The notes beneath the pieces are model-generated. The model worked only from the letters and a program-made list of their open reading frames with translations, did no database searches and was not told the DNA's origin. DNA of 64,000 nt from Muricea muricata. Lineage: Eukaryota; Cnidaria; Anthozoa; Malacalcyonacea; Plexauridae. Where the stretch lies: positions 6,869,330-6,933,329 of the forward strand of contig OY979728.1 in NCBI GenBank assembly GCA_963855995.1. Reading direction: 5' to 3'. How positions within the stretch are numbered: the first letter of the stretch is position 1; each line of letters begins with the position of its first letter. The position numbers and the translations under genes are program-made. Below are positions 42 through 62,838 of the stretch, one piece after another.

Positions 42-59
42 TTATTATTATTATTATTA
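42..59. repeat. (TTA)6 tail of the LINE
   Basis: Six TTA units at the 3' end of the minus-strand element. The count reads as six in all 11 copies. The first TTA overlaps the target (GAGCTTA), so the exact border between duplication and tail is ambiguous by one or two bases. Confidence 0.85.
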
Positions 60-73
60 AAACTATATATATT

Positions 74-117
74 CACGCTTACCCCTTCAGCAATAGCTGA
101 TTTCCAAGGGGGGCGTG
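74..117 (-). other. 3'-UTR stem-loop of the LINE
   Basis: Three nested stems: CACGC with GCGTG, CCCCTT with AAGGGG, and CAGC-AATA-GCTG. In the element's RNA this is a compact hairpin about 15 bases before the TTA tail. In several LINE groups a 3' hairpin is what the RT recognises, which is the likely role here (inference). It sits at the same offset (+30 to +73 from the left end) in the other ten copies. Confidence 0.8.
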
Positions 118-178
118 ACAATAAAAAGAAAACTATATACATAAATACAAATAAAGACAGTAAAACTCAAGTACGATG

Positions 179-502
179 TTAGGATAGATTAATATCAGAA
201 ATTAAAGAATTAAAGGTATTTATCGATATTGAATCTCTAACTTCCGATGGTAAATTATTCCAAAGTTTTGCACCACTATAACTAATACTTTTTCTCATAT
301 ATTCAGTTTTAGGCTTTGTCAGATAAAACCCATAATCTGAATTACGTAAATTGTAATCATGTTGAGGAGCATTTGGATTTCGAAATGATTCGATTAGAAC
401 AGCTGGTGCTTGCATGTGAATTATTCTAAACATGAGTCTGGCTTTCATAACAAGTCTACGTTGCTTCAACGTTTTCCATTGAAGATCATTTAAGGCTGCT
501 TC
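179..502 (-). pseudogene. LINE reverse-transcriptase C-terminal remnant, copy 1
   Basis: Open for 107 residues from EAALNDLQWKTL to SDINLS, ending at TAA. It is the tail beyond the RT domain in LINE ORF2 proteins: a basic LKQRRLVMKARLMFRIIH segment, a QAPAVL turn, YNLRNSDYGF, PKTEYMRKSI, then the typical GAKLWNNLPSEVRDS and a final helix. There are no finger or palm motifs, no YADD-type catalytic box and no endonuclease. The only in-frame initiator-like codon near the 5' part is TTG at 469, not a credible animal start. Copies 1 and 2 carry HMQAP where others have HGQAP, and SDINLS where others have SDISLS. Confidence 0.88.
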
Positions 503-945
503 CGAGCTTAAAATGGTGTTTTCAGTGCTAAAGTGAACGAGTTGAGCGCAATGATGTACTGCAATTCACGGACCTAAAAGAGACCTTCTAAATGGAAATT
601 GCAGAACTTAGCAAGTGGGGAATCATGTTTTCGGCGCTCAAACCATCGAGATGAGCGAAATAACATGTTGAAATGAGAAACCTATAACTTGCTTGTAAAC
701 TGAAAAGAAACGATCTTAGAACCATCAAAATCGCGTTTTAAGCGTTCTAGAAGCGATTTGAGCCTAAAAACATGCTCTAATCACAAACTAAAAACTGCCG
801 TCTTAGATCGATCACGACGACGTTGTAGAGCTTAAAATGGTGTTTTCAGTGCTAAAGTGAACCAGTTAAACGCAATGATGTACTGCAATCACGGACCTAA
901 AAGAGACCTTCTAAATGGAAATTGAAAACTTAGCAAGTCGGGAAT

Positions 946-989
946 CATGTTTTCGGCGCTCAAACCATCGAGATGAGCGAAATAACATG
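946..989. repeat. 44-bp imperfect inverted repeat in the monomer
   Basis: CATGTTTTCGGCGCTCA pairs with TGAGCGAAATAACATG across an 11-base spacer, at monomer positions about 150-193. CATGTT/AACATG and CGCTCA/TGAGCG pair exactly, with a mismatch or bulge between. The element occurs in nearly every monomer; some subtypes carry GGCTCTCA or GAGACGAGCG, which weaken the inner stem. As DNA it could form a cruciform and as RNA a hairpin; function is unknown. Confidence 0.75.
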
Positions 990-1077
990 TTGAAATGAGA
1001 AACCTATAACTTGCTTGTAAACTGAAAAGAAACGATCTTAGAACCATTCAAAATCGCGTTTTAAGCGTTCTAGAATC

Positions 1078-1105
1078 GATTTGAGCGTAAAAACATGCTC
1101 AAATC
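1078..1105. repeat. 28-bp inverted repeat in the monomer
   Basis: GATTTGAGC and GCTCAAATC form a perfect 9-bp stem around the 10-base loop GTAAAAACAT, at monomer positions about 282-309. Monomers ending CTCTAATCAC or CGCTAATCAC, or with GAGCCTAAC, lose pairs, so the perfect stem belongs to a subset. It lies just before the monomer junction. Confidence 0.75.
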
Positions 1106-1119
1106 ACAAACTAAAAATT

Positions 1120-1441
1120 GCCGTCTTAAATCGATAAGGACGACGTTTTAGAGCTTAAAATGGTGTTTTCAGTGCTAAAGTGAACGAGTTAAGCGCAATG
1201 ATGTACTGCAATCACGGTCCGAAAAGAGACCTTCTAAATGGAAATTGACAACTTAGCAAGTCGTGAATCATGTTTTCGGCTCTCAAACCATCGAGATGAG
1301 CGAAATAACATGTTGAAATGAGAAACCTATAACTTGCTTGTAAACTGAAAAGAAACGATCTTAGAACCATCAAAATCCCGTTTTAAGCGTTCTAGAAGCG
1401 ATTTGAGCCTAAAAACATGCTATAATTACAAACTAAAAACT
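1120..1441 (+). repeat. Representative type A monomer
   Basis: A 322-bp monomer beginning GCCGTCTTAAATCGATAAGG. Sub-variants include GACGTTTGAGAG, GACGTTTGAGTG, GAAGACG, GACGTGTTAG and the LINE-bearing form with ATGCAT in place of ATCGAT. The rest of the monomer is shared with type B, so A and B look like the two halves of an old dimer and not unrelated repeats. Confidence 0.9.
1146..1160. repeat. Near-palindrome at the LINE target site
   Basis: TTTTAGAGCTTAAAA is a near-palindrome centred on AGCT, about 27 bp into each monomer. In the LINE-bearing monomers the insertion splits exactly this motif, with GAGCTT duplicated on both sides. This copy is an uninterrupted example of the target. Confidence 0.7.
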
Positions 1442-1800
1442 GCCGTCTTAGATCGATCACGGCGATGTTTTAGAGCTTAAAATGGTGTTTTCAGTGCTAA
1501 AGTGAAGGAGTTAAGCGCAATGATGTACTGCAATCACGGACCTAAAAGAGACCTTCTAAATGGAAATTGACAACTTAGCAAGTCGGGAATCATTTTTTCG
1601 GCTCTCAAATCATCGAGATGAGCGAAATAACATGTTGAAATGAGAAACCTATAACTTGCTTGTAAACTGAAAAGAAACGATCTTAGAACCATCAAAATCC
1701 CGTTTTAGGCGTTCTAGAAACGATTTGAGCGTAAAAACATGCTCAAATCACCAACTAAAAATTGCCGTCTTAAATGCATAAGGACGACGTTTTAGAGCTT

Positions 1801-2260
1801 ATTATTATTATTATTAAAACTATATATATTCACGCTTACCCCTTCAGCAATAGCTGATTTCCAAGGGGGGCGTGACAATAAAAAGAAAACTATATACATA
1901 AATACAAATAAAGACAGTAAAACTCAAGTACGATGTTAGGATAGATTAATATCAGAAATTAAAGAATTAAAGGTATTTATCGATATTGAATCTCTAACTT
2001 CCGATGGTAAATTATTCCAAAGTTTTGCACCACTATAACTAATACTTTTTCTCATATATTCAGTTTTAGGCTTTGTCAGATAAAACCCATAATCTGAATT
2101 ACGTAAATTGTAATCATGTTGAGGAGCATTTGGATTTCGAAATGATTCGATTAGAACAGCTGGTGCTTGCATGTGAATTATTCTAAACATGAGTCTGGCT
2201 TTCATAACAAGTCTACGTTGCTTCAACGTTTTCCATTGAAGATCATTTAAGGCTGCTTCC
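1801..2260 (-). mobile_element. 5'-truncated LINE, copy 2
   Basis: Reads as identical to copy 1 and lies exactly 1757 bp after it. GAGCTT flanks it at 1795-1800 and 2261-2266; the stem-loop is at 1831-1874. Confidence 0.9.
1936..2259 (-). pseudogene. LINE RT C-terminal remnant, copy 2
   Basis: Same 107-residue remnant as copy 1, with the same private HMQAP and SDINLS changes. The shared CC-to-AT double change at the HGQ/HMQ position supports duplication of the whole 1757-bp unit. Confidence 0.87.
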
Positions 2261-2266
2261 GAGCTT

Positions 2267-3557
2267 AAAATGGTGTTTTCAGTGCTAAAGTGAACGAGTT
2301 GAGCGCAATGATGTACTGCAATTCACGGACCTAAAAGAGACCTTCTAAATGGAAATTGCAGAACTTAGCAAGTGGGGAATCATGTTTTCGGCGCTCAAAC
2401 CATCGAGATGAGCGAAATAACATGTTGAAATGAGAAACCTATAACTTGCTTGTAAACTGAAAAGAAACGATCTTAGAACCATCAAAATCGCGTTTTAAGC
2501 GTTCTAGAAGCGATTTGAGCCTAAAAACATGCTCTAATCACAAACTAAAAACTGCCGTCTTAGATCGATCACGACGACGTTGTAGAGCTTAAAATGGTGT
2601 TTTCAGTGCTAAAGTGAACCAGTTAAACGCAATGATGTACTGCAATCACGGACCTAAAAGAGACCTTCTAAATGGAAATTGAAAACTTAGCAAGTCGGGA
2701 ATCATGTTTTCGGCGCTCAAACCATCGAGATGAGCGAAATAACATGTTGAAATGAGAAACCTATAACTTGCTTGTAAACTGAAAAGAAACGATCTTAGAA
2801 CCATTCAAAATCGCGTTTTAAGCGTTCTAGAATCGATTTGAGCGTAAAAACATGCTCAAATCACAAACTAAAAATTGCCGTCTTAAATCGATAAGGACGA
2901 CGTTTTAGAGCTTAAAATGGTGTTTTCAGTGCTAAAGTGAACGAGTTAAGCGCAATGATGTACTGCAATCACGGTCCGAAAAGAGACCTTCTAAATGGAA
3001 ATTGACAACTTAGCAAGTCGTGAATCATGTTTTCGGCTCTCAAACCATCGAGATGAGCGAAATAACATGTTGAAATGAGAAACCTATAACTTGCTTGTAA
3101 ACTGAAAAGAAACGATCTTAGAACCATCAAAATCCCGTTTTAAGCGTTCTAGAAGCGATTTGAGCCTAAAAACATGCTATAATTACAAACTAAAAACTGC
3201 CGTCTTAGATCGATCACGGCGATGTTTTAGAGCTTAAAATGGTGTTTTCAGTGCTAAAGTGAAGGAGTTAAGCGCAATGATGTACTGCAATCACGGACCT
3301 AAAAGAGACCTTCTAAATGGAAATTGACAACTTAGCAAGTCGGGAATCATTTTTTCGGCTCTCAAATCATCGAGATGAGCGAAATAACATGTTGAAATGA
3401 GAAACCTATAACTTGCTTGTAAACTGAAAAGAAACGATCTTAGAACCATCAAAATCCCGTTTTAGGCGTTCTAGAAACGATTTGAGCGTAAAAACATGCT
3501 CAAATCACCAACTAAAAATTGCCGTCTTAAATGCATAAGGACGACGTTTTAGAGCTT
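2267..3557. repeat. Satellite between LINE copies 2 and 3
   Basis: Rest of the LINE-bearing monomer plus starts 2554 (B), 2877 (A), 3199 (B) and the head of 3521. It is the 1757-bp partner of 510-1800. From about 2520 this stretch is also the left end of a block repeated about 23 kb away. Confidence 0.93.
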
Positions 3558-4017
3558 ATTATTATTATTATTAAAACTATATATATTCACGCTTACCCCT
3601 TCAGCAATAGCTGATTTCCAAGGGGGGCGTGACAATAAAAAGAAAACTATATACATAAATACAAATAAAGACAGTAAAACTCAAGTACGATGTTAGGATA
3701 GACTAATATCAGAAATTAAAGAATTAAAGGTATTTATCGATATTGAATCTCTAACTTCCGATGGTAAATTATTCCAAAGTTTTGCACCACTATAACTAAT
3801 ACTTTTTCTCATATATTCAGTTTTAGGCTTTGTCAGATAAAACCCATAATCTGAATTACGTAAATTGTAATCATGTTGAGGAGCATTTGGATTTCGAAAT
3901 GATTCGATTAGAACAGCTGGTGCTTGCCCGTGAATTATTCTAAACATGAGTCTGGCTTTCATAACAAGTCTACGTTGCTTCAACGTTTTCCATTGAAGAT
4001 CATTTAAGGCTGCTTCC
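3558..4017 (-). mobile_element. 5'-truncated LINE, copy 3
   Basis: Same site, truncation and tail as copy 1, with GAGCTT at 3552-3557 and 4018-4023. It lacks the changes private to copies 1 and 2 and is the close partner of copy 6 (offset 22,979). Confidence 0.9.
3693..4016 (-). pseudogene. LINE RT C-terminal remnant, copy 3
   Basis: 107-residue remnant with HGQAP and SDISLS, the likely ancestral states because both the copy 6 branch and the seven-copy branch share them. It keeps LKQRR, MKARL, YSGAK and EVRDS, which define the four-copy group (1, 2, 3, 6). Confidence 0.87.
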
Positions 4018-7000
4018 GAGCTTAAAATGGTGTTTTCAGTGCTAAAGTGAACGAGTTGAGCGCAATGATGTACTGCAATTCACGGACCTAAAAGAGACCT
4101 TCTAAATGGAAATTGCAGAACTTAGCAAGTCGGGAATCATGTTTTCGGCGCTCAAACCATCGAGACGAGCGAAATAACATGTTGAAATGAGAAACCTATA
4201 ACTTGCTTGTAAACTGAAAAGAAACGATCTTAGAACCATCAAAATCGCGTTTTAAGCGTTCTAGAAGCGATTTGAGCCTAAAAACATGCTCTAATCACAA
4301 ACTAAAAACTGCCGTCTTAGATCGATCACGGCCACGTTTTAGAGCTTAAAATGGTGTTTTCAGTGCTGAAGTGAACGAGTTAAGCGCAATGATGTACTGC
4401 AATCACGGACCTAAAAGAGACCTTCTAAATGGAAATTGCAGAACTTAGCAAGTCGGGAATCATGTTTTCGGCGCTCAAACCATCGAGACGAGCGAAATAA
4501 CATGTTGAAATGAGAAACCTATAACTTGCTTGTAAACTGAAAAGAAACGATCTTAGAACCATCAAAATCGCGTTTTAAGCGTTCTAGAAGCGATTTGAGC
4601 CTAAAAACATGCTCTAATCACAAACTAAAAACTGCCGTCTTAGATCGATCACGACGACGTTTTAGAGCTTAAAATGGTGTTTTCAGTGCTAAAGTGAACG
4701 AGTTAAGCGCAATGATGTACTGCAATCACCGACCTAAAAGAGATCTTCTAAATGGAAATTGAAAACTTAGCAAGTCAGGAATCATGTTTTCGGCGCTCAA
4801 ACCATCGAGATGAGCGAAATAACATGTTGAAATGAGAAACCTATAACTTGCTTGTAAACTGAAAAGAAACGATCTTAGAACCATCAAAATCCCGATTTAA
4901 GCGTTCTAGAAGCGATTTGAGCGTAAAAACATGCTCAAATCACCAACTAAAAATTGCCGTCTTAAATCGATAAGGACGACGCTTTAGAGCTTAAAATGGT
5001 GTTTTCAGTGCTAAAGTGAACGAGTTGAGCGCAATGACGTACTGCAATCGCGGACCTAAAAGAGACCTTCTAAATGGAAATTGCACAACTTAGCAAGTCG
5101 GGAATCATGTTTTCGGCGCTCAAAGCATCGAGATGAGCGAAATAACATGTTGAAATGAGAAACCTATAACTTGCTTGAAAACTGAAAAGAAACGATCTTA
5201 GAACCATCAAAATCACGTTTTAAGCGTTCTAGAAGCGATTTGAGCGAAAAACATGCTCTAATCACAAACTAAAAACTGCCGTCTTAGATCGATCACGGCG
5301 ACCTTTTAGAGCTTAAAATGTTTCTTTCAGTGCTAAAGTGAACGAGTTAAGCGCAATGATTTACTTCAATCACGGACCTAAAAGAGACCTTCTAAATGGA
5401 AATTGCACAACTTAGCAAGTCGGGAATCATGTTTTCGGCGCTCAAACCATCGTGATGAGCGAAATAACATGTTGAAATGAGAAACCTATAACTTGCTTGA
5501 ACACTGAAAAGAAACGATCTTAGAACCATCAAAATCCCGTTTTAAGCGTTCTAGAAGCGATTTGAGCTTAACATGCTCTAATCACAAACTAAAAACTGCC
5601 GTCTTAGATCGATCACGGCGACGTTTTAGAGCTTAAAATGGTGTTTTCAGTGCCAAAGTGAACGAGTTAAGCGCAATGATGTACTCCAATCACGGACCTA
5701 AAAGAGACCTTCTAAATGGAAATTGACAACTTAGCAAGTCGGGAATCATGTTTTCGGCTCTCAAACCATTGAGATGAGCGAAATAACATGTTGAAATGAG
5801 AAACTATAACTTGCTTGTAAACTGAAAAGAAACGATCTGAGAACAATGAAAATCCCGTTTTAAGCGTTATAGTAGCGATTTGAGCGTAAAAACATGCTCA
5901 AATCACCAACTAAAAATTGCCGTCTTAAATCGATAAGGACGACGTTTTAGAGCTTAAAATGGTGTTTTCAGTGCTAAAGTGAACGAGTTGAGCGCAATGA
6001 CGTACTCCAATCGCGGACCTAAAAGAGACCTTCGAAATGGAAATTGCACAACTTAGAAAGTCGGGAATCATGTTTTCGGCTCTCAAACCATTGAGATGAG
6101 CGAAATAACATGTTGAAATGAGAAACTATAACTTGCTTGTAAACTGAAAAGAAACGATCTGAGAAAAATGAAAATCCCGTTTTAAGCGTTCTAGAAGCGA
6201 TTTGAGCGTAAAAACATGCTCAAATCACCAACTAAAAATTGCCGTCTTAAATCGATAAGGACGACGTTTTAGAGCTTAAAATGGTGTTTTCAGTGCTAAA
6301 GTGAACGAGTTGAGCGCAATGACGTACTGCAATCGCGGACCTAAAAGAGACCTTCTAAATGGAAATTGCACAACTTAGAAAGTCGGGAATCATGTTTTCG
6401 GCGCTAAAACCATCGAGATGAGCGAAATAACATGTTGAAATGAGAAACCTATAACTTGCTTGTAAACTGAAAAGAAACGATCTTAGAACCATTCAAAATC
6501 GCGTTTTAAGCGTTCTAGAAGCGATTTGAGCGTAAAAACATGCTCTAATCACAAACTAAAAACTGCCGTCTTAGATCGATCATGACAACATTTTAGAGTT
6601 TAAAATGATGTTTTCAGTGCTAAAGTGAACGAGTTAAGCGCAATGATATACTGCAATCACGGATTTAAAAGAGACATTCTAAATGGAAATTGAAAACTTG
6701 GCAAGTCGGGAATCATGTTTTCGGCACTCAAACCATCGTGATGAGCGAAATAACATGTTGAAATGAGAAACCTATAACTTGCTTGTAAACTTAAAAGAAA
6801 CGATCTTAGAACCATTCAAAATCGCGTTTTAAGCGTTCTAGAAGCGATTTGAGCGTAAAAACATGCTCAAATCACAAACTAAAAATTGCCGTCTTAAATC
6901 GATAAGGACGACGTTTTAGAGCTTAAAATGGTGTTTTCAGTGCTAAAGGGAACGAGTTAAGCGCAATGATGTACTGCAATCACGGACCGAAAAGAGACCT

Positions 7001-14296: not shown

Positions 14297-17200
14297 GCCG
14301 TCTTAGATCGATCACGGCCACGTTTTAGAGCTTAAAATGGTGTTTTCAGTGCTGAAGTGAACGAGTTAAGCGCAATGATGTACTGCAATCACGGACCTAA
14401 AAGAGACCTTCTAAATGGAAATTGAAAACTTAGCAAGTCAGGAATCATGTTTTCGGCGCTCAAACCATCGAGATGAGCGAAATAACATGTTGAAATGAGA
14501 AACCTATAACTTGCTTGTAAACTGAAAAGAAACGATCTTAGAACCATCAAAATCCCGTTTTAAGCGTTCTAGAAGCGATTTGAGCGTAAAAACATGCTCA
14601 AATCACAACCTAAAAATTGCCGTCTTAAATCGATAAGGACGACGTTTTAGAGCTTAAAATGATTTTTTCAGTGCTAAAGTGAACGAGTTGAGCGCAATGA
14701 TGTACTGAAATCACGGACCTAAACGAGACCTTCTAAATGGAAATTGCACAACTTAGAAAGTCGGGAATCATGTTTTCGGCGCTAAAACCATCGAGATGAG
14801 CGAAATAACATGCTAAAATGAGAAACCTATAACTTGCTTGAAAACTGAAAAGAAACGATCTTAGAACCATCAAATCACGTTTTAAGCGTTCTAGAAGCGA
14901 TTTGAGCGAAAAACATGCTCTAATCACAAACTAAAAACTGCCGTCTTAGATCGATCACGGCGACCTTTTAGAGCTCAAAATGATGTTTTCAGTGCTAAAG
15001 TGAACGAGTTAAGCGCAATGATTTACTTCAATCACGGACCGAAAAGAGACCTTCTAAATGGAAATTGACAACTTAGCAAGTCGGGAATCATGTTTTCGGC
15101 TCTCAAACCATCGAGATGAGCGAAATAACATGTTGAAATGAGAAACCTATAACTTGCTTGTAAACTGAAAAGAAACGATCTTAGAACCATCAAAATCCCG
15201 TTTTAAGCGTTCTAGAAGCGATTTGAGCGTAAAAACATGCTCAAATCACGAACTAAAAATTGCCGTCTTAAATCGATAAGGAAGACGTTTTAGAGCTTAA
15301 AATGGTGTTTTCAGTGCCAAAGTGAACGAGTTAAGCGCAATGATGTACTGCAATCACGGACCTAAAAGAGACCTTCTAAATGGAAATTGACAACTAAGCA
15401 AGTCGGGAATCATGTTTTCGGCTCTCAAACCATTGAGATGAGCGAAATAACATGTTGAAATGAGAAACTATAACTTGCTTGTAAACTGAAAAGAAACGAT
15501 CTTAGAACAATGAAAATCCCGTTTTAAGCGTTCTAGAAGCGATTTGAGCGTAAAAACCTGCTCAAATCACGAACTAAAAATTGCCGTCTTAAATCGATAA
15601 GGAAGACGTTTTAGAGCTTAAAATGGTGTTTTCAGTGCTAAAGTGAACGAGTTGAGCGCAATGACGTACTGCAATCGCGGACCTAAAAGAGACCTTCTAA
15701 ATGGAAATTGCACAACTTAGAAAGTCGGGAATCATGTTTTCGGCGCTAAAACCATCGAGATGAGCGAAATAACATGTTGAAATGAGAAACCTATAACTTG
15801 TTGAAAACTGAAAAGAAACGATCTTAGAACCATCAAAATCACGTTTTAAGCGTTCTAGAAGCGATTTGAGCCTAACATGCTCTAATCACAAACTAAAAAC
15901 TGCCGTCTTAGATCGATCACGGCGACGTTTTAGAGCTTAAAATGGTGTTTTCAGTGCCAAAGTGAACGAGTTAAGCGCAATGATGTACTGCAATCACGGA
16001 CCTAAAAGAGACCTTCTAAATGGAAATTGACAACTTAGCAAGTCGGGAATCATGTTTTCGGCTCTCAAACCATTGAGATGAGCGAAATAACATGTTTAAA
16101 TGAGAAACTATAACTTGCTTGTAAACTAAAAAGAAACGATCTGAGAACAATGAAAATCCCGTTTTAAGCGTTCTAGAAGCGATTTGAGCGTAAAAACATG
16201 CTCAAATCACCAACTAAAAATTGCCATCTTAAATCGATAAGGACGACGTTTTAGAGCTTAAAATGGTGTTTTCAGTGCTAAAGTGAACCAGTTGAGCGCA
16301 ATGACGTACTACAATCGCGGACCTAAAAGAGACCTTCTAAATGGAAATTGCACAACTTAGAAAGTCGGGAATCATGTTTTCGGCGCTAAAACCATCGAGA
16401 TGAGCGAAATAACATGTTAAAATGAGAAACCTATAACTTGCTTGAAAACTGAAAAGAAACGATCTTAGAACCATCAAAATCACGTTTTAAGCGTTCTAGA
16501 AGCGATTTGAGCGAAAAACATGCTCTAATCAAAAACTAAAAACTGCCGTCTTAGATCGATCACGGCGACCTTTTAGAGCTCAAAATGGTGTTTTCAGTGC
16601 TAAAGTGAACGAGTTAAGCGCAATGATTTACTTCAATCACGGACCTAAAAGAGACCTTCTAAATGGAAATTGCACAACTTAGCAAGTCGGGAATCATGTT
16701 TTCGGCGCTCAAACCATCGAGATGAGCGAAATAACATGTTGAAATGAGAAACCTATAACTTGCTTGAACACTGAAAAGAAACGATCTTAGAAGCATCAAA
16801 ATCCCGTTTTAAGCGTTCTAGAAGCGATTTGAGCGTAAAAACATGCTCAATTCACCAACTAAAAATTGCCGTCTTAAATCGATAAGGACGACGTTTGAGA
16901 GCTTAAAATGGTGTTTTCAGTGCTGAAGTGAACGAGTTGAGCGCAATGATGTACTGCAATCACGGACCTAAAAGAGACTTTCTAAATAGAAATTGCACAA
17001 CTTAGCAAGTCGGGAATCATGTTTTCGGCGCTCAAACCATCGACATGAGCGAAATAACATGTTGAAATGAGAAACCTATAACTTGCTTGTAAACTGAAAA
17101 GAAACGATCTTTGAACCATCAAAATCGCGTTTTAAGCGTTCTAGAAGCGATTTGAGTGTAAAAACATGCGCTAATCACGAACTAAAAACTGCCGTCTTAG

Positions 17201-18195: not shown

Positions 18196-18655
18196 ATTAT
18201 TATTATTATTAAAACTATATTTATTCACGCTTACCCCTTCAGCAATAGCTGATTTCCAAGGGGGGCGTGACAATAAAAAGAAAACTATATACGTAAATAC
18301 AAATAAAGACAGTAAAACTCAAGTACGATGTTAGGATAGACTAATATCAGAAATTAAAGAATTAAAGGTATTTATCGATATTGAATCTTTAACTTCCGAT
18401 GGTAAATTATTCCAAAGTTTTGCACCAATATAACTAATACTTTTTCTCATATATTCAGTTTTAGGCTTTGTCAGATAAAACCCATAATCTGAATTACGTA
18501 AATTGTAATCATGTTGAGGAGCACTTGGATTTCGAAATGATTCGATTAGAACAGCTGGTGCTTGCCCGTGAATTATTCTAAACATGAGTCTGTCTTTCAT
18601 AACAAGTCTACGTCGCTTCAACGTTTTCCATTGAAGATCATTTAAGGCTGCTTCC
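18196..18655 (-). mobile_element. 5'-truncated LINE, copy 4
   Basis: Flanked by GAGCTT (18190-18195 and 18656-18661); stem-loop at 18226-18269. It belongs to the seven-copy group (4, 5, 7-11), marked by TATATTTATTCACGC beside the stem-loop and TATACGTAAAT in the UTR. Confidence 0.9.
18331..18654 (-). pseudogene. LINE RT C-terminal remnant, copy 4
   Basis: 107 residues with the seven-copy group changes LKRRR, MKDRL, YIGAK and EVKDS, plus FRNPSAP (S allele) shared with copies 7 and 10. The frame continues upstream through the target duplication into 22 satellite codons back to a GTG at 18720, making a 129-codon chimeric reading frame with no ATG start. Confidence 0.87.
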
Positions 18656-18661
18656 GAGCTT

Positions 18662-22025: not shown

Positions 22026-22031
22026 GAGCTT

Positions 22032-46647: not shown

Positions 46648-47107
46648 ATTATTATTATTATTAAAACTATATTTATTCACGCTTACCCCTTCAGCAATAG
46701 CTGATTTCCAAGGGGGGCGTGACAATAAAAAGAAAACTATATACGTAAATACAAATAAAGACAGTAAAACTCAAGTACGATGTTAGGATAGACTAATATC
46801 AGAAATTAAAGAATTAAAGGTATTTATCGATATTGAATCTTTAACTTCCGATGGTAAATTATTCCAAAGTTTTGCACCAATATAACTAATACTTTTTCTC
46901 ATATATTCAGTTTTAGGCTTTGTCAGATAAAACCCATAATCTGAATTACGTAAATTGTAATCATGTTGAGGAGCACTTGGATTTCGAAATGATTCGATTA
47001 GAACAGCTGGTGCTTGCCCGTGAATTATTCTAAACATGAGTCTGTCTTTCATAACAAGTCTACGTCGCTTCAACGTTTTCCATTGAAGATCATTTAAGGC
47101 TGCTTCC
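46648..47107 (-). mobile_element. 5'-truncated LINE, copy 7
   Basis: GAGCTT at 46642-46647 and 47108-47113; stem-loop at 46678-46721. Flanks match copy 4 (offset 28,452) on the left, up to the join near 45774-45830. Confidence 0.9.
46783..47106 (-). pseudogene. LINE RT C-terminal remnant, copy 7
   Basis: Seven-copy group, S allele (FRNPSAP), same protein as copies 4 and 10. Satellite-derived chimeric frame to GTG at 47172. Confidence 0.87.
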
Positions 47108-50304: not shown

Positions 50305-50663
50305 GCCGTCTTAGATCGATCACGGCGACATTTTAGAGCTTAAAATGGTGTTTTCAGTGCTAAAGTGAACGAGTTAAGCGCAATGATGTACTGCAATCAC
50401 GGACCTAAAAGAGACCTTCTAAATGGAAATTGACAACTTAGCAAGTCGGGAATCATTTTTTCGGCTCTCAAATCATCGAGATGAGCGAAATAACATGTTG
50501 AAATGAGAAACCTATAACTTGCTTGTAAACTGAAAAGAAACGATCTTAGAACCATCAAAATCCCGTTTTAGGCGTTCTAGAAACGATTTGAGCGTAAAAA
50601 CATGCTCAAATCACCAACTAAAAATTGCCGTCTTAAATGCATAAGGACGACGTTTTAGAGCTT

Positions 50664-51123
50664 ATTATTATTATTATTAAAACTATATTTATTCACGCTT
50701 ACCCCTTCAGCAATAGCTGATTTCCAAGGGGGGCGTGACAATAAAAAGAAAACTATATACGTAAATACAAATAAAGACAGTAAAACTCAAGTACGATGTT
50801 AGGATAGACTAATATCAGAAATTAAAGAATTAAAGGTATTTATCGATATTGAATCTTTAACTTCCGATGGTAAATTATTCCAAAGTTTTGCACCAATATA
50901 ACTAATACTTTTTCTCATATATTCAGTTTTAGGCTTTGTCAGATAAAACCCATAATCTGAATTACGTAAATTGTAATCATGTTGAGGAGCATTTGGATTT
51001 CGAAATGATTCGATTAGAACAGCTGGTGCTTGCCCGTGAATTATTCTAAACATGAGTCTGTCTTTCATAACAAGTCTACGTCGCTTCAACGTTTTCCATT
51101 GAAGATCATTTAAGGCTGCTTCC
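50664..51123 (-). mobile_element. 5'-truncated LINE, copy 8
   Basis: GAGCTT at 50658-50663 and 51124-51129; stem-loop at 50694-50737. Standard seven-copy group sequence. Confidence 0.9.
50799..51122 (-). pseudogene. LINE RT C-terminal remnant, copy 8
   Basis: Seven-copy group, N allele (FRNPNAP). Chimeric frame to GTG at 51188. Confidence 0.87.
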
Positions 51124-51129: not shown

Positions 51130-53711
51130 AAAATGGTGTTTTCAGTGCTAAAGTGAACGAGTTGAGCGCAATGATGTACTGCAATCACGGACCTAAAAGA
51201 GACCTTCTAAATGGAAATTGCAGAACTTAGCAAGTCGGAAATCAAGTTTTTGGCGCTCAAACCATCGAGATGAGCGAAATAACATGTTGAAATGAGAAAC
51301 CTATAACTTGCTTGTAAACTGAAAAGAAACGATCTTAGAACCATAAAAATCCCGTTTTAAGCGTTCTAGAAGCGATTTGAGCCTAAAAACATGCTCTAAT
51401 CACAAACTAAAAACTGCCGTCTTAGATCGATCACGACGACGTTTTAGAGCTTAAAATGGTGTTTTCAGTGCTAAAGTGAACGAGTTAAACGCAATGATGT
51501 ACTGCAATCACGGACCTAAAAGAGACCTTCTAAATGGAAATTGAAAACTTAGCAAGTCGGGAATCATGTTTTCGGCGCTCAAACCATCGAGATGAGCGAA
51601 ATAACATGTTGAAATGAGAAACCTATAACTTGCTTGTAAACTGAAAAGAAACGGTCTTAGAAGCATCAAATTCCCGTTTTAAGCGTTCTAGAAGCGATTT
51701 GAGCGTAAAAACATGCTCAATTCACCAACTAAAAATTGCCGTCTTAAATCGATAAGGACGACGTTTGAGTGCTTAAAATGGTGTTTTCAGTGCTGAAGTG
51801 AACGAGTTAAGCGCAATGATTTACTTCAATCACGGACCGAAAAGAGACCTTCTAAATGGAAATTGACAACTTAGCAAGTCGGGAATCATGTTTTCGGCTC
51901 TCAAACCATCGAGATGAGCGAAATAACATGTTGAAATGAGAAACCTATAACTTGCTTGTAAACTGAAAAGAAACGATCTTAGAACCATCAAAATCCCGTT
52001 TTAAGCGTTCTAGAAGCGATTTGAGCGTAAAAACATGCTCAAATCACAAACTAAAAATTGCCGTCTTAAATCGATAAGGACGACGTTTTAGAGCTCAAAA
52101 TGGTGTTTTCAGTGCTAAAGTGAACGAGTTGAGCGCAATGATGTACTGCAATCACGGACCTAAAAGAGACCTTCTAAATGGAAATTGCATAACTTATAAA
52201 GTCGGGAATCATGTTTTCGGCGCTAAAACCATCGAGATGAGCGAAATAACATGTTGAAATGAGAAACCTATAACTTGCTTGTAAACTGAAAAGAAACGAT
52301 CTTAGAACCATCAAAATCCCTTTTTAAGCGTTCTAGAAGCGATTTGAACGTAAAAACATGCTCAAATCACCAACTAAAAATTGCCGTCTTAAATCGATAA
52401 GGACGACGTTTTAGAGCTTAAAATGGTGTTTTCAGTGCTAAAGTGAACGAGTTGAGCGCAATGATGTACTGCAATCACGGACCTAAAAGAGACCTTCTAA
52501 ATGGAAATTGAAGAACTTAGCAAGTCGGAAATCAAGTTTTTGGCGCTCAAACCATCGAGATGAGCGAAATAACATGTTGAAATGAGAAACCTATAACTTG
52601 CTTGTAAACTGAAAAGAAACGATCTTAGAACCATTCAAAATCGCGTTTTAAGCGTTCTAGAAGCGATTTGAGCGTAAAAACATGCTCAAATCACAAACTA
52701 AAAATTGCCGTCTTAAATCCATAAGGACGACGTTTTAGAGCTTAAAATGGTGTTTTCCGTGCTAAAGGGAACGAGTTAAGCGCAATGATGTACTGCAATC
52801 ACGGACCTAAAAGAGACCTTCTAAATGGAAATTGCAGAACTTAGCAAGTCGGGAATCATGTTTTCGGCGCTCAAACCATCGAGACGAGCGAAATAACATG
52901 TTGAAATGAGAAACCTATAACTTGCTTGTAAACTGAAAAGAAACGATCTTCGAACCGTCAAAATCCCGTTTTAAGCGTTCTAGAAGCGATTTGAGCGTAA
53001 AAACATGCTCAAATCACAACCTAAAAATTGCCGTCTTAAATCGATAAGGACGACGTTTTAGAGCTTAAAATGATTTTTTCAGTGCTAAAGTGAACGAGTT
53101 GAGCGCAATGATGTACTGCAATCACGGACCTAAAAGAGACCTTCTAAATGGAAATTGCACAACTTAGAAAGTCGGGAATCATGTTTTCGGCGCTAAAACC
53201 ATCGAGATGAGCGAAATAACATGTTAAAATGAGAAACCTATAACTTGCTTGAAAACTGAAAAGAAACGATCTTAGAACCATAAAAATCGCGTTTTAAGCG
53301 TTCTAGAAGCGATTTGAGTGTAAAAACATGCGCTAATCACGAACTAAAAACTGCCGTCTTAGATCGATCACGGCGACATTTTAGAGCTTAAAATGGTGTT
53401 TTCAGTGCTAAAGTGAACGAGTTAAGCGCAATGATGTACTGCAATCACGGACCTAAAAGAGACCTTCTAAATGGAAATTGACAACTTAGCAAGTCGGGAA
53501 TCATTTTTTCGGCTCTCAAATCATCGAGATGAGCGAAATAACATGTTGAAATGAGAAACCTATAACTTGCTTGTAAACTGAAAAGAAACGATCTTAGAAC
53601 CATCAAAATCCCGTTTTAGGCGTTCTAGAAACGATTTGAGCGTAAAAACATGCTCAAATCACCAACTAAAAATTGCCGTCTTAAATGCATAAGGACGACG
53701 TTTTAGAGCTT
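51130..53711. repeat. Satellite between LINE copies 8 and 9
   Basis: Starts 51416 B, then five A monomers in a row (51738, 52060, 52383, 52707, 53030), 53353 B and the head of 53675. Monomer 52707 is a hybrid: TTTTCCGTGCTAAAGGG in front as at 44040, then GGACCTAAAAG and CTTCGAACCGTC as at 49659. This join produces the short 3048-bp spacing. No gene seen. Confidence 0.93.
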
Positions 53712-54171
53712 ATTATTATTATTATTAAAACTATATTTATTCACGCTTACCCCTTCAGCAATAGCTGATTTCCAAGGGGGGCGTGACAATAAAAAGAAAA
53801 CTATATACGTAAATACAAATAAAGACAGTAAAACTCAAGTACGATGTTAGGATAGACTAATATCAGAAATTAAAGAATTAAAGGTATTTATCGATATTGA
53901 ATCTTTAACTTCCGATGGTAAATTATTCCAAAGTTTTGCACCAATATAACTAATACTTTTTCTCATATATTCAGTTTTAGGCTTTGTCAGATAAAACCCA
54001 TAATCTGAATTACGTAAATTGTAATCATGTTGAGGAGCATTTGGATTTCGAAATGATTCGATTAGAACAGCTGGTGCTTGCCCGTGAATTATTCTAAACA
54101 TGAGTCTGTCTTTCATAACAAGTCTACGTCGCTTCAACGTTTTCCATTGAAGATCATTTAAGGCTGCTTCC
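53712..54171 (-). mobile_element. 5'-truncated LINE, copy 9
   Basis: GAGCTT at 53706-53711 and 54172-54177; stem-loop at 53742-53785. Its 3048-bp distance from copy 8 is the shortest in the seven-copy group. Confidence 0.9.
53847..54170 (-). pseudogene. LINE RT C-terminal remnant, copy 9
   Basis: Seven-copy group, N allele, same protein as copy 8. The pair 8-9 is the only case where an N copy is followed directly by another N copy. Chimeric frame to GTG at 54236. Confidence 0.87.
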
Positions 54172-54177
54172 GAGCTT

Positions 54178-57100
54178 AAAATGGTGTTTTCAGTGCTAAA
54201 GTGAACGAGTTGAGCGCAATGATGTACTGCAATCACGGACCTAAAAGAGACCTTCTAAATGGAAATTGCAGAACTTAGCAAGTCGGAAATCAAGTTTTTG
54301 GCGCTCAAACCATCGAGATGAGCGAAATAACATGTTGAAATGAGAAACCTATAACTTGCTTGTAAACTGAAAAGAAACGATCTTAGAACCATAAAAATCC
54401 CGTTTTAAGCGTTCTAGAAGCGATTTGAGCCTAAAAACATGCTCTAATCACAAACTAAAAACTGCCGTCTTAGATCGATCACGACGACGTTTTAGAGCTT
54501 AAAATGGTGTTTTCAGTGCTAAAGTGAACGAGTTAAACGCAATGATGTACTGCAATCACGGACCTAAAAGAGACCTTCTAAATGGAAATTGAAAACTTAG
54601 CAAGTCGGGAATCATGTTTTCGGCGCTCAAACCATCGAGATGAGCGAAATAACATGTTGAAATGAGAAACCTATAACTTGCTTGTAAACTGAAAAGAAAC
54701 GGTCTTAGAAGCATCAAATTCCCGTTTTAAGCGTTCTAGAAGCGATTTGAGCGTAAAAACATGCTCAATTCACCAACTAAAAATTGCCGTCTTAAATCGA
54801 TAAGGACGACGTTTGAGTGCTTAAAATGGTGTTTTCAGTGCTGAAGTGAACGAGTTAAGCGCAATGATTTACTTCAATCACGGACCGAAAAGAGACCTTC
54901 TAAATGGAAATTGACAACTTAGCAAGTCGGGAATCATGTTTTCGGCTCTCAAACCATCGAGATGAGCGAAATAACATGTTGAAATGAGAAACCTATAACT
55001 TGCTTGTAAACTGAAAAGAAACGATCTTAGAACCATCAAAATCCCGTTTTAAGCGTTCTAGAAGCGATTTGAGCGTAAAAACATGCTCAAATCACAAACT
55101 AAAAATTGCCGTCTTAAATCGATAAGGACGACGTTTTAGAGCTCAAAATGGTGTTTTCAGTGCTAAAGTGAACGAGTTGAGCGCAATGATGTACTGCAAT
55201 CACGGACCTAAAAGAGACCTTCTAAATGGAAATTGCATAACTTATAAAGTCGGGAATCATGTTTTCGGCGCTAAAACCATCGAGATGAGCGAAATAACAT
55301 GTTGAAATGAGAAACCTATAACTTGCTTGTAAACTGAAAAGAAACGATCTTAGAACCATCAAAATCCCTTTTTAAGCGTTCTAGAAGCGATTTGAACGTA
55401 AAAACATGCTCAAATCACCAACTAAAAATTGCCGTCTTAAATCGATAAGGACGACGTTTTAGAGCTTAAAATGGTGTTTTCAGTGCTAAAGTGAACGAGT
55501 TGAGCGCAATGATGTACTGCAATCACGGACCTAAAAGAGACCTTCTAAATGGAAATTGAAGAACTTAGCAAGTCGGAAATCAAGTTTTTGGCGCTCAAAC
55601 CATCGAGATGAGCGAAATAACATGTTGAAATGAGAAACCTATAACTTGCTTGTAAACTGAAAAGAAACGATCTTAGAACCATTCAAAATCGCGTTTTAAG
55701 CGTTCTAGAAGCGATTTGAGCGTAAAAACATGCTCAAATCACAAACTAAAAATTGCCGTCTTAAATCCATAAGGACGACGTTTTAGAGCTTAAAATGGTG
55801 TTTTCCGTGCTAAAGGGAACGAGTTAAGCGCAATGATGTACTGCAATCACGGACCGAAAAGAGACCTTCTAAATGGAAATTGCAGAACTTAGCAAGTCGG
55901 GAATCATGTTTTCGGCGCTCAAACCATCGAGACGAGCGAAATAACATGTTGAAATGAGAAACCTATAACTTGCTTGAACACTGAAAAGAAACGATCTTAG
56001 AAGCATCAAAATCCCGTTTTAAGCGTTCTAGAAGCGATTTGAGCCTAACATGCTCTAATCACAAACTAAAAACTGCCGTTTTAGATCGATCACGGCGACG
56101 TTTTAGAGCTTAAAATGGTGTTTTCAGTGCCAAAGTGAACGAGTTAAGCGCAATGATGTACTGCAATCACGGACCTAAAAGAGACCTTCTAAATGGAAAT
56201 TGACAACTTAGCAAGTCGGGAATCATGTTTTCGGCTCTCAAACTATTGAGATGAGCGAAATAACATGTTGAAATGAGAAACTATAACTTGCTTGTAAACT
56301 GAAAAGAAACGATCTTAGAACAATGAAAATCCCGTTTTAAGCGTTCTAGAAGCGATTTGAGCGTAAAAACCTGCTCAAATCACGAACTAAAAATTGCCGT
56401 CTTAAATCGATAAGGAAGACGTTTTAGAGCTTAAAATGGTGTTTTCAGTGCTAAAGTGAACGAGTTGAGCGCAATGACGTACTGCAATCGCGGACCTAAA
56501 AGAGACCTTCTAAATGGAAATTGCACAACTTAGAAAGTCGGGAATCATGTTTTCGGCGCTAAAACCATCGAGATGAGCGAAATAACATGTTGAAATGAGA
56601 AACCTATAACTTGTTGAAAACTGAAAAGAAACGATCTTAGAACCATCAAAATCACGTTTTAAGCGTTCTAGAAGCGATTTGAGCCTAACATGCTCTAATC
56701 ACAAACTAAAAACTGCCGTCTTAGATCGATCACGGCGACGTTTTAGAGCTTAAAATGGTGTTTTCAGTGCCAAAGTGAACGAGTTAAGCGCAATGATGTA
56801 CTGCAATCACGGACCTAAAAGAGACCTTCTAAATGGAAATTGACAACTTAGCAAGTCGGGAATCATGTTTTCGGCTCTCAAACCATTGAGATGAGCGAAA
56901 TAACATGTTGAAATGAGAAACTATAACTTGCTTGTAAACTAAAAAGAAACGATCTGAGAACAATGAAAATCCCGTTTTAAGCGTTCTAGAAGCGATTTGA
57001 GCGTAAAAACATGCTCAAATCACCAACTAAAAATTGCCATCTTAAATCGATAAGGACGACGTTTTAGAGCTTAAAATGGTGTTTTCAGTGCTAAAGTGAA

Positions 57101-59008
57101 CCAGTTGAGCGCAATGACGTACTACAATCGCGGACCTAAAAGAGACCTTCTAAATGGAAATTGCACAACTTAGAAAGTCGGGAATCATGTTTTCGGCGCT
57201 AAAACCATCGAGATGAGCGAAATAACATGTTAAAATGAGAAACCTATAACTTGCTTGAAAACTGAAAAGAAACGATCTTAGAACCATCAAAATCACGTTT
57301 TAAGCGTTCTAGAAGCGATTTGAGCGAAAAACATGCTCTAATCAAAAACTAAAAACTGCCGTCTTAGATCGATCACGGCGACCTTTTAGAGCTCAAAATG
57401 GTGTTTTCAGTGCTAAAGTGAACGAGTTAAGCGCAATGATTTACTTCAATCACGGACCTAAAAGAGACCTTCTAAATGGAAATTGCACAACTTAGCAAGT
57501 CGGGAATCATGTTTTCGGCGCTCAAACCATCGAGATGAGCGAAATAACATGTTGAAATGAGAAACCTATAACTTGCTTGAACACTGAAAAGAAACGATCT
57601 TAGAAGCATCAAAATCCCGTTTTAAGCGTTCTAGAAGCGATTTGAGCGTAAAAACATGCTCAATTCACCAACTAAAAATTGCCGTCTTAAATCGATAAGG
57701 ACGACGTTTGAGAGCTTAAAATGGTGTTTTCAGTGCTGAAGTGAACGAGTTGAGCGCAATGATGTACTGCAATCACGGACCTAAAAGAGACTTTCTAAAT
57801 AGAAATTGCACAACTTAGCAAGTCGGGAATCATGTTTTCGGCGCTCAAACCATCGACATGAGCGAAATAACATGTTGAAATGAGAAACCTATAACTTGCT
57901 TGTAAACTGAAAAGAAACGATCTTTGAACCATCAAAATCGCGTTTTAAGCGTTCTAGAAGCGATTTGAGTGTAAAAACATGCGCTAATCACGAACTAAAA
58001 ACTGCCGTCTTAGATCGATCACGGCCACGTTTTAGAGTTTAAAATAGTGTTTTCAGTGCTGAAGTGAACGAGTTAAGCGCAATGATGTACTGCAATCACG
58101 GACCTAAAAGAGACCTTCTAAATGGAAATTGCAGAACTTAGCAAGTCGGGAATCATGTTTTCGGCGCTCAAACCATCGAGACGAGCGAAATAACATGTTG
58201 AAATGAGAAACCTATAACTTGCTTGTAAACTGAAAAGAAACGATCTTAGGACCATCAAAATCCCGTTTTAAGCGTTCTAGAAGCGATTTGAGCGTAAAAA
58301 CATGCTCAAATCACAACCTAAAAATTGCCGTCTTAAATCGATAAGGACGACGTTTTAGAGCTTAAAATGATTTTTTCAGTGCTAAAGTGAACGAGTTGAG
58401 CGCAATGATGTACTGCAATCACGGACCTAAAAGAGACCTTCTAAATGGAAATTGCACAACTTAGAAAGTCGGGAATCATGTTTTCGGCGCTAAAACCATC
58501 GAGATGAGCGAAATAACATGTTAAAATGAGAAACCTATAACTTGCTTGAAAACTGAAAAGAAACGATCTTAGAACCATAAAAATCGCGTTTTAAGCGTTC
58601 TAGAAGCGATTTGAGTGTAAAAACATGCGCTAATCACGAACTAAAAACTGCCGTCTTAGATCGATCACGGCGACATTTTAGAGCTTAAAATGGTGTTTTC
58701 AGTGCTAAAGTGAACGAGTTAAGCGCAATGATGTACTGCAATCACGGACCTAAAAGAGACCTTCTAAATGGAAATTGACAACTTAGCAAGTCGGGAATCA
58801 TTTTTTCGGCTCTCAAATCATCGAGATGAGCGAAATAACATGTTGAAATGAAAAACCTATAACTTGCTTGTAAACTGAAAAGAAACGATCTTAGAACCAT
58901 CAAAATCCCGTTTTAGGCGTTCTAGAAACGATTTGAGCGTAAAAACATGCTCAAATCACCAACTAAAAATTGCCGTCTTAAATGCATAAGGACGACGTTT
59001 TAGAGCTT
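54178..59008. repeat. Satellite between LINE copies 9 and 10
   Basis: Fourteen full monomers, 54464 to 58650, and the head of 58972. The part to about 57.6 kb matches 22318-25.5 kb (offset about 32,148), and the part from 56097 matches 15284 on (offset 40,813), so both blocks overlap here. No gene seen. Confidence 0.93.
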
Positions 59009-59468
59009 ATTATTATTATTATTAAAACTATATTTATTCACGCTTACCCCTTCAGCAATAGCTGATTTCCAAGGGGGGCGTGACAATAAAAAGAAAACTA
59101 TATACGTAAATACAAATAAAGACAGTAAAACTCAAGTACGATGTTAGGATAGACTAATATCAGAAATTAAAGAATTAAAGGTATTTATCGATATTGAATC
59201 TTTAACTTCCGATGGTAAATTATTCCAAAGTTTTGCACCAATATAACTAATACTTTTTCTCATATATTCAGTTTTAGGCTTTGTCAGATAAAACCCATAA
59301 TCTGAATTACGTAAATTGTAATCATGTTGAGGAGCACTTGGATTTCGAAATGATTCGATTAGAACAGCTGGTGCTTGCCCGTGAATTATTCTAAACATGA
59401 GTCTGTCTTTCATAACAAGTCTACGTCGCTTCAACGTTTTCCATTGAAGATCATTTAAGGCTGCTTCC
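59009..59468 (-). mobile_element. 5'-truncated LINE, copy 10
   Basis: GAGCTT at 59003-59008 and 59469-59474; stem-loop at 59039-59082. Partner of copy 4. Confidence 0.9.
59144..59467 (-). pseudogene. LINE RT C-terminal remnant, copy 10
   Basis: Seven-copy group, S allele. Chimeric frame to GTG at 59533. Confidence 0.87.
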
Positions 59469-59474
59469 GAGCTT

Positions 59475-62378
59475 AAAATGGTGTTTTCAGTGCTAAAGTG
59501 AACGAGTTGAGCGCAATGATGTACTGCAATCACGGACCTAAAAGAGACCTTCTAAATGGAAATTGCAGAACTTAGCAAGTCGGAAATCAAGTTTTTGGCG
59601 CTCAAACCATCGAGATGAGCGAAATAACATGTTGAAATGAGAAACCTATAACTTGCTTGTAAACTGAAAAGAAACGATCTTAGAACCATAAAAATCCCGT
59701 TTTAAGCGTTCTAGAAGCGATTTGAGCCTAAAAACATGCTCTAATCACAAACTAAAAACTGCCGTCTTAGATCGATCACGACGACGTTTTAGAGCTTAAA
59801 ATGGTGTTTTCAGTGCTAAAGTGAACGAGTTAAACGCAATGATGTACTGCAATCACGGACCTAAAAGAGACCTTCTAAATGGAAATTGAAAACTTAGCAA
59901 GTCGGGAATCATGTTTTCGGCGCTCAAACCATCGAGATGAGCGAAATAACATGTTGAAATGAGAAACCTATAACTTGCTTGTAAACTGAAAAGAAACGGT
60001 CTTAGAACCATCAAATTCCCGTTTTTAGCGTTCTAGAAGCGATTTGAGCGTAAAAACATGCTCAATTCACCAACTAAAAATTGCCGTCTTAAATCGATAA
60101 GGACGACGTTTGAGAGCTTAAAATGGTGTTTTCAGTGCTGAAGTGAACGAGTCGAGCGCAATGATGTACTGCAATCACGGACCTAAAAGAGACCTTCTAA
60201 ATGGAAATTGCATAACTTATAAAGTCGGGAATCATGTTTTCGGCGCAAAAACCATCGAGATGAGCGAAATAACATGTTGAAATGAGAAACCTATAACTTG
60301 CTTGTAAACTGAAAAGAAACGTTCTTAGAACCATCAAAATCCCTTTTTAAGCGTTCTAGAAGCGATTTGAACGTAAAAACATGCTCAAATCACCAACTAA
60401 AAATTGCCGTCTTAAATCGATAAGGACGACGTTTTAGAGCTTAAAATGGTGTTTTAAGTGCTAAAGTGAACGAGTTAAACGCAATGATGTACTGCAATCA
60501 CGGACCTAAAAGAGACCTTCTAAATGGAAATTGAAAACTTAGCAAGTCGGGAATCATGTTTTCGGCGCTCAAACCATCGAGATGAGCGAAATAACATGTT
60601 GAAATGAGAAACCTATAACTTGCTTGTAAACTGAAAAAAAACGGTCTTAGAACCATCAAATTCCCGTTTTAAGCGTTCTAGAAGCGATTTGAGCATAAAA
60701 ACATGCTCAATTCACCAACTAAAAATTGCCGTCTTAAATCGATAAGGACGACGTTTTAGAGCTTAAAATGGTGTTTTCAGTGCTAAAGTGAACGAGTTGA
60801 GCGCAATGATGTACTGCAATCACGGACCTAAAAGAGACCTTCTAAATGGAAATTGCAGAGCTTAGCAAGTCGGAAATCAAGTTTTTGGCGCTCAAACCAT
60901 CGAGATGAGCGAAATAACATGTTGAAATGAGAAACCTATAACTTGCTTGTAAACTGAAAAGAAACGATCTTAGAACCATAAAAATCCCGTTTTAAGCGTT
61001 CTAGAAGCGATTTGAGCGTAAAAACATGCTCAATTCACCAACTAAAAATATCCGTCTTAAATCGATAAGGACGACGTTTGAGAGCTTAAAATGGTGTTTT
61101 TAGTGCTGAAGTGAACGAGTTGAGCGCAATGATGTACTGCAATCACGGACCTAAAAGAGACTTTCTAAATAGAAATTGCACAACTTAGCAAGTCGGGAAT
61201 CATGTTTTCGGCGCTCAAACCATCGACATGAGCGAAATAACATGTTGAAATGAGAAACCTATAACTTGCTTGTAAACTGAAAAGAAACGATCTTTGAACC
61301 ATCAAAATCGCGTTTTAAGCGTTCTAGAAGCGATTTGAGTGTAAAAACATGCGCTAATCACGAACTAAAAACTGCCGTCTTAGATCGATCACGGCCACGT
61401 TTTAGAGTTTAAAATGGTGTTTTCAGTGCTGAAGTGAACGAGTTAAGCGCAATGATGTACTGCAATCACGGACCTAAAAGAGACCTTCTAAATGGAAATT
61501 GCAGAACTTAGCAAGTCGGGAATCATGTTTTCGGCGCTCAAACCATCGAGACGAGCGAAATAACATGTTGAAATGAGAAACCTATAACTTGCTTGTAAAC
61601 TGAAAAGAAACGATCTTAGAACCGTCAAAATCCCGTTTTAAGCGTTCTAGAAGCGATTTGAGCGTAAAAACATGCTCAAATCACAACCTAAAAATTGCCG
61701 TCTTAAATCGATAAGGACGACGTTTTAGAGCTTAAAATGATTTTTTCAGTGCTAAAGTGAACGAGTTGAGCGCAATGATGTACTGCAATCACGGACCTAA
61801 AAGAGACCTTCTAAATGGAAATTGCACAACTTAGAAAGTCGGGAATCATGTTTTCGGCACTAAAACCATCGAGATGAGCGAAATAACATGTTAAAATGAG
61901 AAACCTATAACTTGCTTGAAAACTGAAAAGAAACGATCTTAGAACCATAAAAATCGCGTTTTAAGCGTTCTAGAAGCGATTTGAGTGTAAAAACATGCGC
62001 TAATCACGAACTAAAAACTGCCGTCTTAGATCGATCACGGCGACATTTTAGAGCTTAAAATGGTGTTTTCAGTGCTAAAGTGAACGAGTTAAGCGCAATG
62101 ATGTACTGCAATCACGGACCTAAAAGAGACCTTCTAAATGGAAATTGACAACTTAGCAAGTCGGGAATCATTTTTTCGGCTCTCAAATCATCGAGATGAG
62201 CGAAATAACATGTTGAAATGAGAAACCTATAACTTGCTTGTAAACTGAAAAGAAACGATCTTAGAACCATCAAAATCCCGTTTTAGGCGTTCTAGAAACG
62301 ATTTGAGCGTAAAAACATGCTCAAATCACCAACTAAAAATTGCCGTCTTAAATGCATAAGGACGACGTTTTAGAGCTT
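59475..62378. repeat. Satellite between LINE copies 10 and 11
   Basis: Eight full monomers plus the head of 62342. It has GAGCGAAAT near 60588 and GCGCAATG near 60804, where the 18-21 and 46-50 kb equivalents have GAGCTAAAT and GCGCTATG. No gene seen. Confidence 0.93.
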
Positions 62379-62838
62379 ATTATTATTATTATTAAAACTA
62401 TATTTATTCACGCTTACCCCTTCAGCAATAGCTGATTTCCAAGGGGGGCGTGACAATAAAAAGAAAACTATATACGTAAATACAAATAAAGACAGTAAAA
62501 CTCAAGTACGATGTTAGGATAGACTAATATCAGAAATTAAAGAATTAAAGGTATTTATCGATATTGAATCTTTAACTTCCGATGGTAAATTATTCCAAAG
62601 TTTTGCACCAATATAACTAATACTTTTTCTCATATATTCAGTTTTAGGCTTTGTCAGATAAAACCCATAATCTGAATTACGTAAATTGTAATCATGTTGA
62701 GGAGCATTTGGATTTCGAAATGATTCGATTAGAACAGCTGGTGCTTGCCCGTGAATTATTCTAAACATGAGTCTGTCTTTCATAACAAGTCTACGTCGCT
62801 TCAACGTTTTCCATTGAAGATCATTTAAGGCTGCTTCC
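62379..62838 (-). mobile_element. 5'-truncated LINE, copy 11
   Basis: GAGCTT at 62373-62378 and 62839-62844; stem-loop at 62409-62452. Partner of copy 5 but without its private UTR change. Confidence 0.9.
62514..62837 (-). pseudogene. LINE RT C-terminal remnant, copy 11
   Basis: Seven-copy group, N allele. Chimeric frame to GTG at 62903. Confidence 0.87.

Follow-up and report, generated by a model that had tools for sequence, protein, structure and literature searches.

Transposable element (TE) insertions in tandem arrays can be copied along with the array, as seen for copied ATHILA elements in Arabidopsis centromeres and for Alu in human HSat1B. TE insertions occur within centromeric higher-order-repeat arrays, as described in the passages of one review that deal with such arrays (PMC6471113). 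Composite satellites derived from "transposon graveyards" carry TE segments in their units, and the sections of a review devoted to them also mention TE-in-TE arrangements in a satellite array and term the origin of such composite satellites an open question (PMC12628747). Here, we describe a 64,000-nucleotide stretch of the cnidarian Muricea muricata (contig OY979728.1, referred to as C13, positions 6869330-6933329 in an assembly of 453 Mb and 74 contigs; hereafter the window), in which a satellite array with a monomer of ~323 bp contains 11 copies of the 3′ end of a long interspersed nuclear element (LINE).

We consider it probable, at about 0.85, that one LINE inserted into one 323-bp monomer and was then copied by duplication of satellite blocks. 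The copies have one insertion site, one truncation point, one tail length and private substitutions, the array contains duplicated multi-kb blocks, and the LINE-bearing variant is confined to one contig. The common site, truncation, tail, marker hexamer (ATGCAT) and private substitutions, together with the grouping of the copies, lead to this reading. As in the higher-order-repeat arrays covered by the cited passages, a TE has inserted within a tandem array; here, however, the TE is a truncated cnidarian LINE, its 44 copies probably trace to one marked event, and a second element is nested within it (PMC6471113). In contrast to the graveyard satellites as presented in the sections cited above, the insertion site, the source family and the block copies are still visible (PMC12628747). 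The type of event is already known, and this example is an unusually clear and readable record of array growth. A single tagged event makes block sizes, breakpoints and chromosome confinement traceable where the likeness of the monomers would otherwise hide them, and the LINE tag is a ready marker for the rate of array turnover between individuals and related species.

LINE copies in the window and in the genome

All 11 inserts in the window are exactly 460 bp long, are flanked on each side by GAGCTT and lie with the LINE sense sequence on the minus strand. They occupy positions 44-503 (with the target-site duplication at 38-43 and 504-509), 1801-2260, 3558-4017, 18196-18655, 21566-22025, 26537-26996, 46648-47107, 50664-51123, 53712-54171, 59009-59468, and 62379-62838. 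The sequence (TTA)6 is found 11 times in the window (mean of 0.00 in 100 shuffles), and the two Ts with which it opens coincide with the last two bases of the duplicated GAGCTT. A 3′-anchored and 5′-truncated insert, a target-site duplication and a repeat tail, the features of a LINE, are thus present in 11 of 11 window copies and along the contig. ATGCAT likewise occurs 11 times, each time starting 27 bp ahead of an insert (17-22, 1774-1779, 3531-3536, 18169-18174, 21539-21544, 26510-26515, 46621-46626, 50637-50642, 53685-53690, 58982-58987, and 62352-62357), and nowhere else in the window. The inserts are not identical and fall into six sequence types, forming two groups of 4 and 7. A preliminary description of the window had proposed 11 copies with a common 5′ truncation, tail and GAGCTT duplication, each tied to ATGCAT; both points are borne out.

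The number 11 holds for the window, whereas the genome contains 44 such junctions. A genome search with a 36-bp pattern for the left junction, allowing up to three mismatches, gave 44 matches, all on C13 within 1.26 Mb (6.42 to 7.69 Mb) and 43 of them in one orientation. These represent 40 intact LINE copies and four interrupted ones. Among the intact copies, 39 measure 460 bp and one 459 bp; 27 different sequences are present, the tail length is constant, and 2 of the 40 have a substitution in the tail. The four interrupted copies share their left end with the intact ones, and the three that contain a hAT-like insert also have the same 5′-truncation junction. Copies with another truncation point, tail or target site, which would speak for separate insertions, were sought in 250,462 bases of C13 and none was found; this sequence holds the 40 full copies and seven pieces, all of which come from the four interrupted copies. 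The tagged variant is confined to C13 (44 of 44 junctions), which is assumed to be one chromosome, while the satellite itself spans several contigs: a 41-bp piece of it has 31,224 matches genome-wide at up to three mismatches, and the matches listed are on C7 and C10.

It could be asked whether an assembler multiplied one or a few real copies, since the assembly of satellite arrays is difficult and C13:7658000-7667999 contains 200 Ns and a strand switch. The 27 different sequences among the 40 intact copies, the differing flanks and the existence of interrupted copies make such an artefact very improbable.

The marker extends to 43 of the 44 junction copies, the remaining one (C13:6809662) having ATGGAT. 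A 22-bp context of ATGCAT has 43 exact matches in the genome, each at one of the 44 LINE copies. As to the LINE-free ATGCAT monomers that the preliminary description suggested looking for, none matched the 22-bp context exactly, a search that would miss a monomer whose context differs at two or more further positions, and none of the 520 LINE-free monomers parsed from C13 has ATGCAT at the marker place (the parse, by a length rule, took 38 of the 44 LINE-bearing monomers). A LINE-free ATGCAT monomer as the ancestor of the tagged variant was therefore not found within the limits of the pattern search and the C13 parse. When whole sequences are compared, most of the nearest LINE-free monomers have ATCGAT, so that no ancestor stands out. 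LINE-free matches to the context with one mismatch have ATGGAT (6) or ATCCAT (4). Such monomers lie at C13:6533853-6554337 and in the window at about 23611, 44044, 52711 and 55759, and each of the two hexamers is one substitution away from both ATCGAT and ATGCAT.

Source of the LINE

A genome search for the source LINE, also proposed earlier, returned longer copies, one of which has a frame for endonuclease and reverse transcriptase. This frame of 964 amino acids (L010) matches RVT_1 (1.4e-36) and Exo_endo_phos (1.3e-11), and the source is a LINE with both domains. Scoring of the best 40 of 235 candidates gave seven genomic copies outside C13, distributed over C1, C3 and C22; all seven continue beyond the truncation point of the array copies, and their tails vary in length. 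In another genomic copy, an upstream frame of 229 amino acids (L015) resembles the GDSL family at 28.7 bits (E 2.2e-06), under the Pfam cut-off of 32.9. An esterase-like ORF1 is a feature of the CR1 clade. The source may be akin to CR1-like non-LTR (long terminal repeat) retrotransposons, given its endonuclease and reverse transcriptase domains and the 5′ truncation, simple-repeat tail and target duplication of the insert; the captured piece differs in comprising only the 3′ 460 bp.

Three substitutions are fixed in all 40 intact array copies and absent from the seven genomic copies. At one of these sites, the non-array base is present at all 43 genomic places whose sequence runs beyond the truncation point (the longer LINE form, found with up to two mismatches to a 34-bp pattern). 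In a tree of the array copies and the seven genomic copies, the 40 array copies form one side of a branch with a support of 93/93. Array copies differ from one another at a mean of 5.49 of 460 positions (at most 13), and the seven genomic copies at 1.14 (at most 4); tree and distances exclude 6679035, which is the right-hand half of an interrupted copy.

As an alternative origin of the copies, members of one LINE family could have inserted independently several times at one site. The family is common, with the 43 places of the longer form, and the window copies fall into two marked groups. However, the copies read have one truncation point, one tail length, one target base and one marker, and the three substitutions are present in both groups, whereas genomic tails vary. 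Given the common truncation, tail, marker and private substitutions, independent insertions are rejected as extremely improbable. The claim of a single insertion amplified with the satellite is instead supported by the 44 of 44 junctions on C13, the 43 with ATGCAT, and the three private substitutions.

Block duplication in the array

A contiguous region of 76.9 kb that surrounds the window holds 217 monomers with a median pairwise difference of 21 positions. Runs of similar monomers, between 5 and 20 long, are found again elsewhere with mean differences of 0.4 to 11, and among the 45 runs listed, 27 have a LINE at the matching place in both members, 17 have none, and one is one-sided. The longest, a block of 20 monomers with two LINE copies at 15293-22670 (plus strand), is duplicated at 56106-63483 (plus strand, likewise with two copies); the two differ at 0-2 positions per monomer inside the block and at 26 and 17 positions at its two edges, close to the background median of 21. 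At sites with two matching monomers on each side (up to 12 differences), 26 pairs have the LINE in both members, 183 in neither, and none is discordant. With up to 15 differences, the counts are 36, 262 and 6, respectively. Some block edges coincide with a LINE (monomers 12 and 79; 27 and 198). Because BLAST matches end at LINE boundaries, block lengths derived from them are overstated; they were dropped, and the monomer runs were used instead, the monomers at the edges of the longest match being at background.

Several observations weigh against one insertion followed by block duplication. Each of the 10 long BLAST matches (up to 12.2 kb) has a LINE boundary at one or both of its ends. A one-sided LINE is seen in 3 of the 45 listed runs (two of them counted among the 27), always at the left edge. 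At up to 15 differences, the discordant sites make up 6 of the 42 LINE-involving pairs, all within a local repeat of 1,757 bp. Among copies located at 6.54-6.95 Mb, relatedness tracks distance weakly (Mantel r=0.139, a value reached in 347 of 9999 permutations; n=35), and for 20 of these 35 copies a physical neighbor is a closest relative. The 93/93 support of the array branch is below the star level of the tool and rests on a genomic sample of seven among the 40 best of 235. A T of another lineage is also present in copy 6556904 and in the genomic copy C1_11398421, and the copies at 7.66-7.69 Mb are close to the 200 Ns and the strand switch. Finally, the flank common to copies of different lineages is short, about one monomer on the left and one to three on the right, which gene conversion could also produce. 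The edges of these flanks vary from pair to pair (11 of the 30 copies with long flanks were compared, and 13 of the 110 pair alignments, which failed at the LINE edge, were left out).

It has to be considered that one insertion spread early by gene conversion of a tract of ~1.1-1.5 kb and that only the recent copies arose by block duplication. The left flank between lineages matches over ~320 bp before falling to background, and when two LINEs are separated by more than 20 monomers, their immediate left-hand monomers differ at a mean of 1.5 positions, while those further left differ at 12 to 21. Against conversion of this kind, no collinear pair of sites has the LINE in one member only at up to 12 differences; 6 of 42 pairs do at 15. 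Moreover, copies 6611239 and 7685301 match over ~1.4 kb on the left and 1 kb on the right, and 6935722 and 6611239 over ~1 kb on the right. These longer flanks in some distant pairs fit the erosion of longer blocks, and short, variable flanks between lineages are expected if exchange with LINE-free monomers wore down older blocks. An early phase of gene conversion is therefore unlikely, though with an appreciable chance of having contributed.

Proposed sequence of events

Under a single insertion with subsequent block duplication, the 3′-most 460 bp of the LINE, including the tail, would have inserted once into one 323-bp monomer on C13 and duplicated GAGCTT. By established LINE biology, this insertion would have proceeded through target-primed reverse transcription. 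The host monomer may already have had ATGCAT or may have gained it soon after. The array would then have duplicated multi-monomer blocks (up to 20 monomers are seen), probably through unequal exchange or replication-based repair, and the LINE-holding blocks would have carried the LINE along to reach as many as 44 copies in the assembly. Later recombination with LINE-free monomers may have replaced the flanks, so that old pairs have only a short core in common on either side of the LINE. One LINE copy would later have received a hAT-like element, which spread to three in the same manner.

Spacing of the LINE copies

The preliminary description held that the LINE fragment is now part of the repeat unit. 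Along the contiguous 76.9 kb, the LINE copies are spaced by 4, 4, 4, 44, 9, 14, 61, 11, 8, 15, 9, 11 and 13 monomers, a series whose regular composite repeat is limited to the first stretch. The claim is consequently not supported beyond that stretch, where spacing is irregular, and holds locally for a unit of 1,757 bp (the LINE and four monomers). This local repeat occupies 1-4341 of the window (plus strand) and starts to the left of it, at C13:6866966, with four successive LINE copies, three of which are inside the window. A fixed register of the TE fragment is found in these four copies at 4-monomer spacing, while the other spacings, between 8 and 61 monomers, are irregular.

Whether the LINE-bearing repeat is favored and on its way to a new composite satellite can be assessed from these spacings and from the monomers left of the LINE. 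Beyond the four successive copies at 1,757 bp, left-of-LINE monomers are richer in near-identical partners: within three differences they have a mean of 12.7 partners, compared to 3.7 for others (of which 4.8% have at least 10), and they make up the largest family at up to two differences (14 monomers). However, this family was picked by its shared tag, which biases the comparison of partners towards it, and at up to four and up to six differences the largest LINE-free families, with 15 and 18 monomers, exceed the 14 left-of-LINE monomers. No junction is found between 6.94 and 7.66 Mb either, though seven of eight samples there are satellite. A favored repeat thus appears improbable. In the 76.9 kb, 186 of 217 monomers belong to some recent duplicate run, indicating that the whole stretch turns over. 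We lean towards the LINE being a passenger of satellite turnover, with the larger number of partners of left-of-LINE monomers weighing against a pure passenger. Only tentatively, and with some doubt, may it be suggested that a satellite of several chromosomes has exchanged sequence within just one of them since the insertion, and that the 1,757-bp unit and the nested hAT-like copies represent a newly arising composite satellite.

A nested hAT-like element

In three of the four interrupted copies (C13:6668822, 6673644 and 6677825), the LINE is interrupted at one identical base by the same element of ~1.1 kb. Terminal inverted repeats and an 8-bp target duplication are hAT features. In all three copies, the element has inverted-repeat ends, CAGTGGCGAAGCCAG on the left and GGCTTCGCCACTG on the right, and is flanked on both sides by the 8-bp duplication CGTGACAA. 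By its ends and duplication, it is a putative hAT-like DNA transposon. Relatives are present on many contigs, with 63 matches from the best 40 of 324 candidates scored. In the fourth interrupted copy (6770117), the LINE gives way after 127 bp to DNA with tandem repeats of ~66 and ~131 bp, and no remainder of it was found in the following 5.7 kb.

The satellite array and additional observations

Outside the inserts, the window (1-64000, plus strand) reads as satellite throughout. Within the 323-bp monomer, a periodicity of ~108 bp is observed between 4018 and 58859 with 56-57% matches, so that the monomer may derive from a trimer. In 12 of the 20 spot samples taken along C13, satellite makes up 94% or more of the sequence; in one it makes up 46%, and the remaining seven have none. 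Satellite is observed from 6.25 Mb onwards and stops short of 7.69 Mb, and the interval also contains non-satellite stretches, switches of strand and the 200-N run; at about 6.25-7.69 of 13.0 Mb, the array is located mid-contig. Switches of satellite orientation and the 200 Ns were noted at C13:7658000-7667999 and in samples at 7.55 and 7.63 Mb. The four LINE copies at 7.66-7.69 Mb may have been placed by scaffolding.

A search of Rfam with positions 1-6000 of the window and a search of a plasmid collection returned no match, and a literature search combining octocoral satellite DNA and centromere found no paper, a statement limited to that search. Mitochondrial MutS is a feature of octocorals, and a contig of 19.3 kb (C74) contains COX1, a MutS gene and a COX2-like frame, the last recognized by eye; the source of the DNA accordingly resembles an octocoral. 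On a nuclear contig, a COX1-like stretch with one in-frame TAA (C1:38414782-38416095) is perhaps a nuclear copy of mitochondrial DNA.

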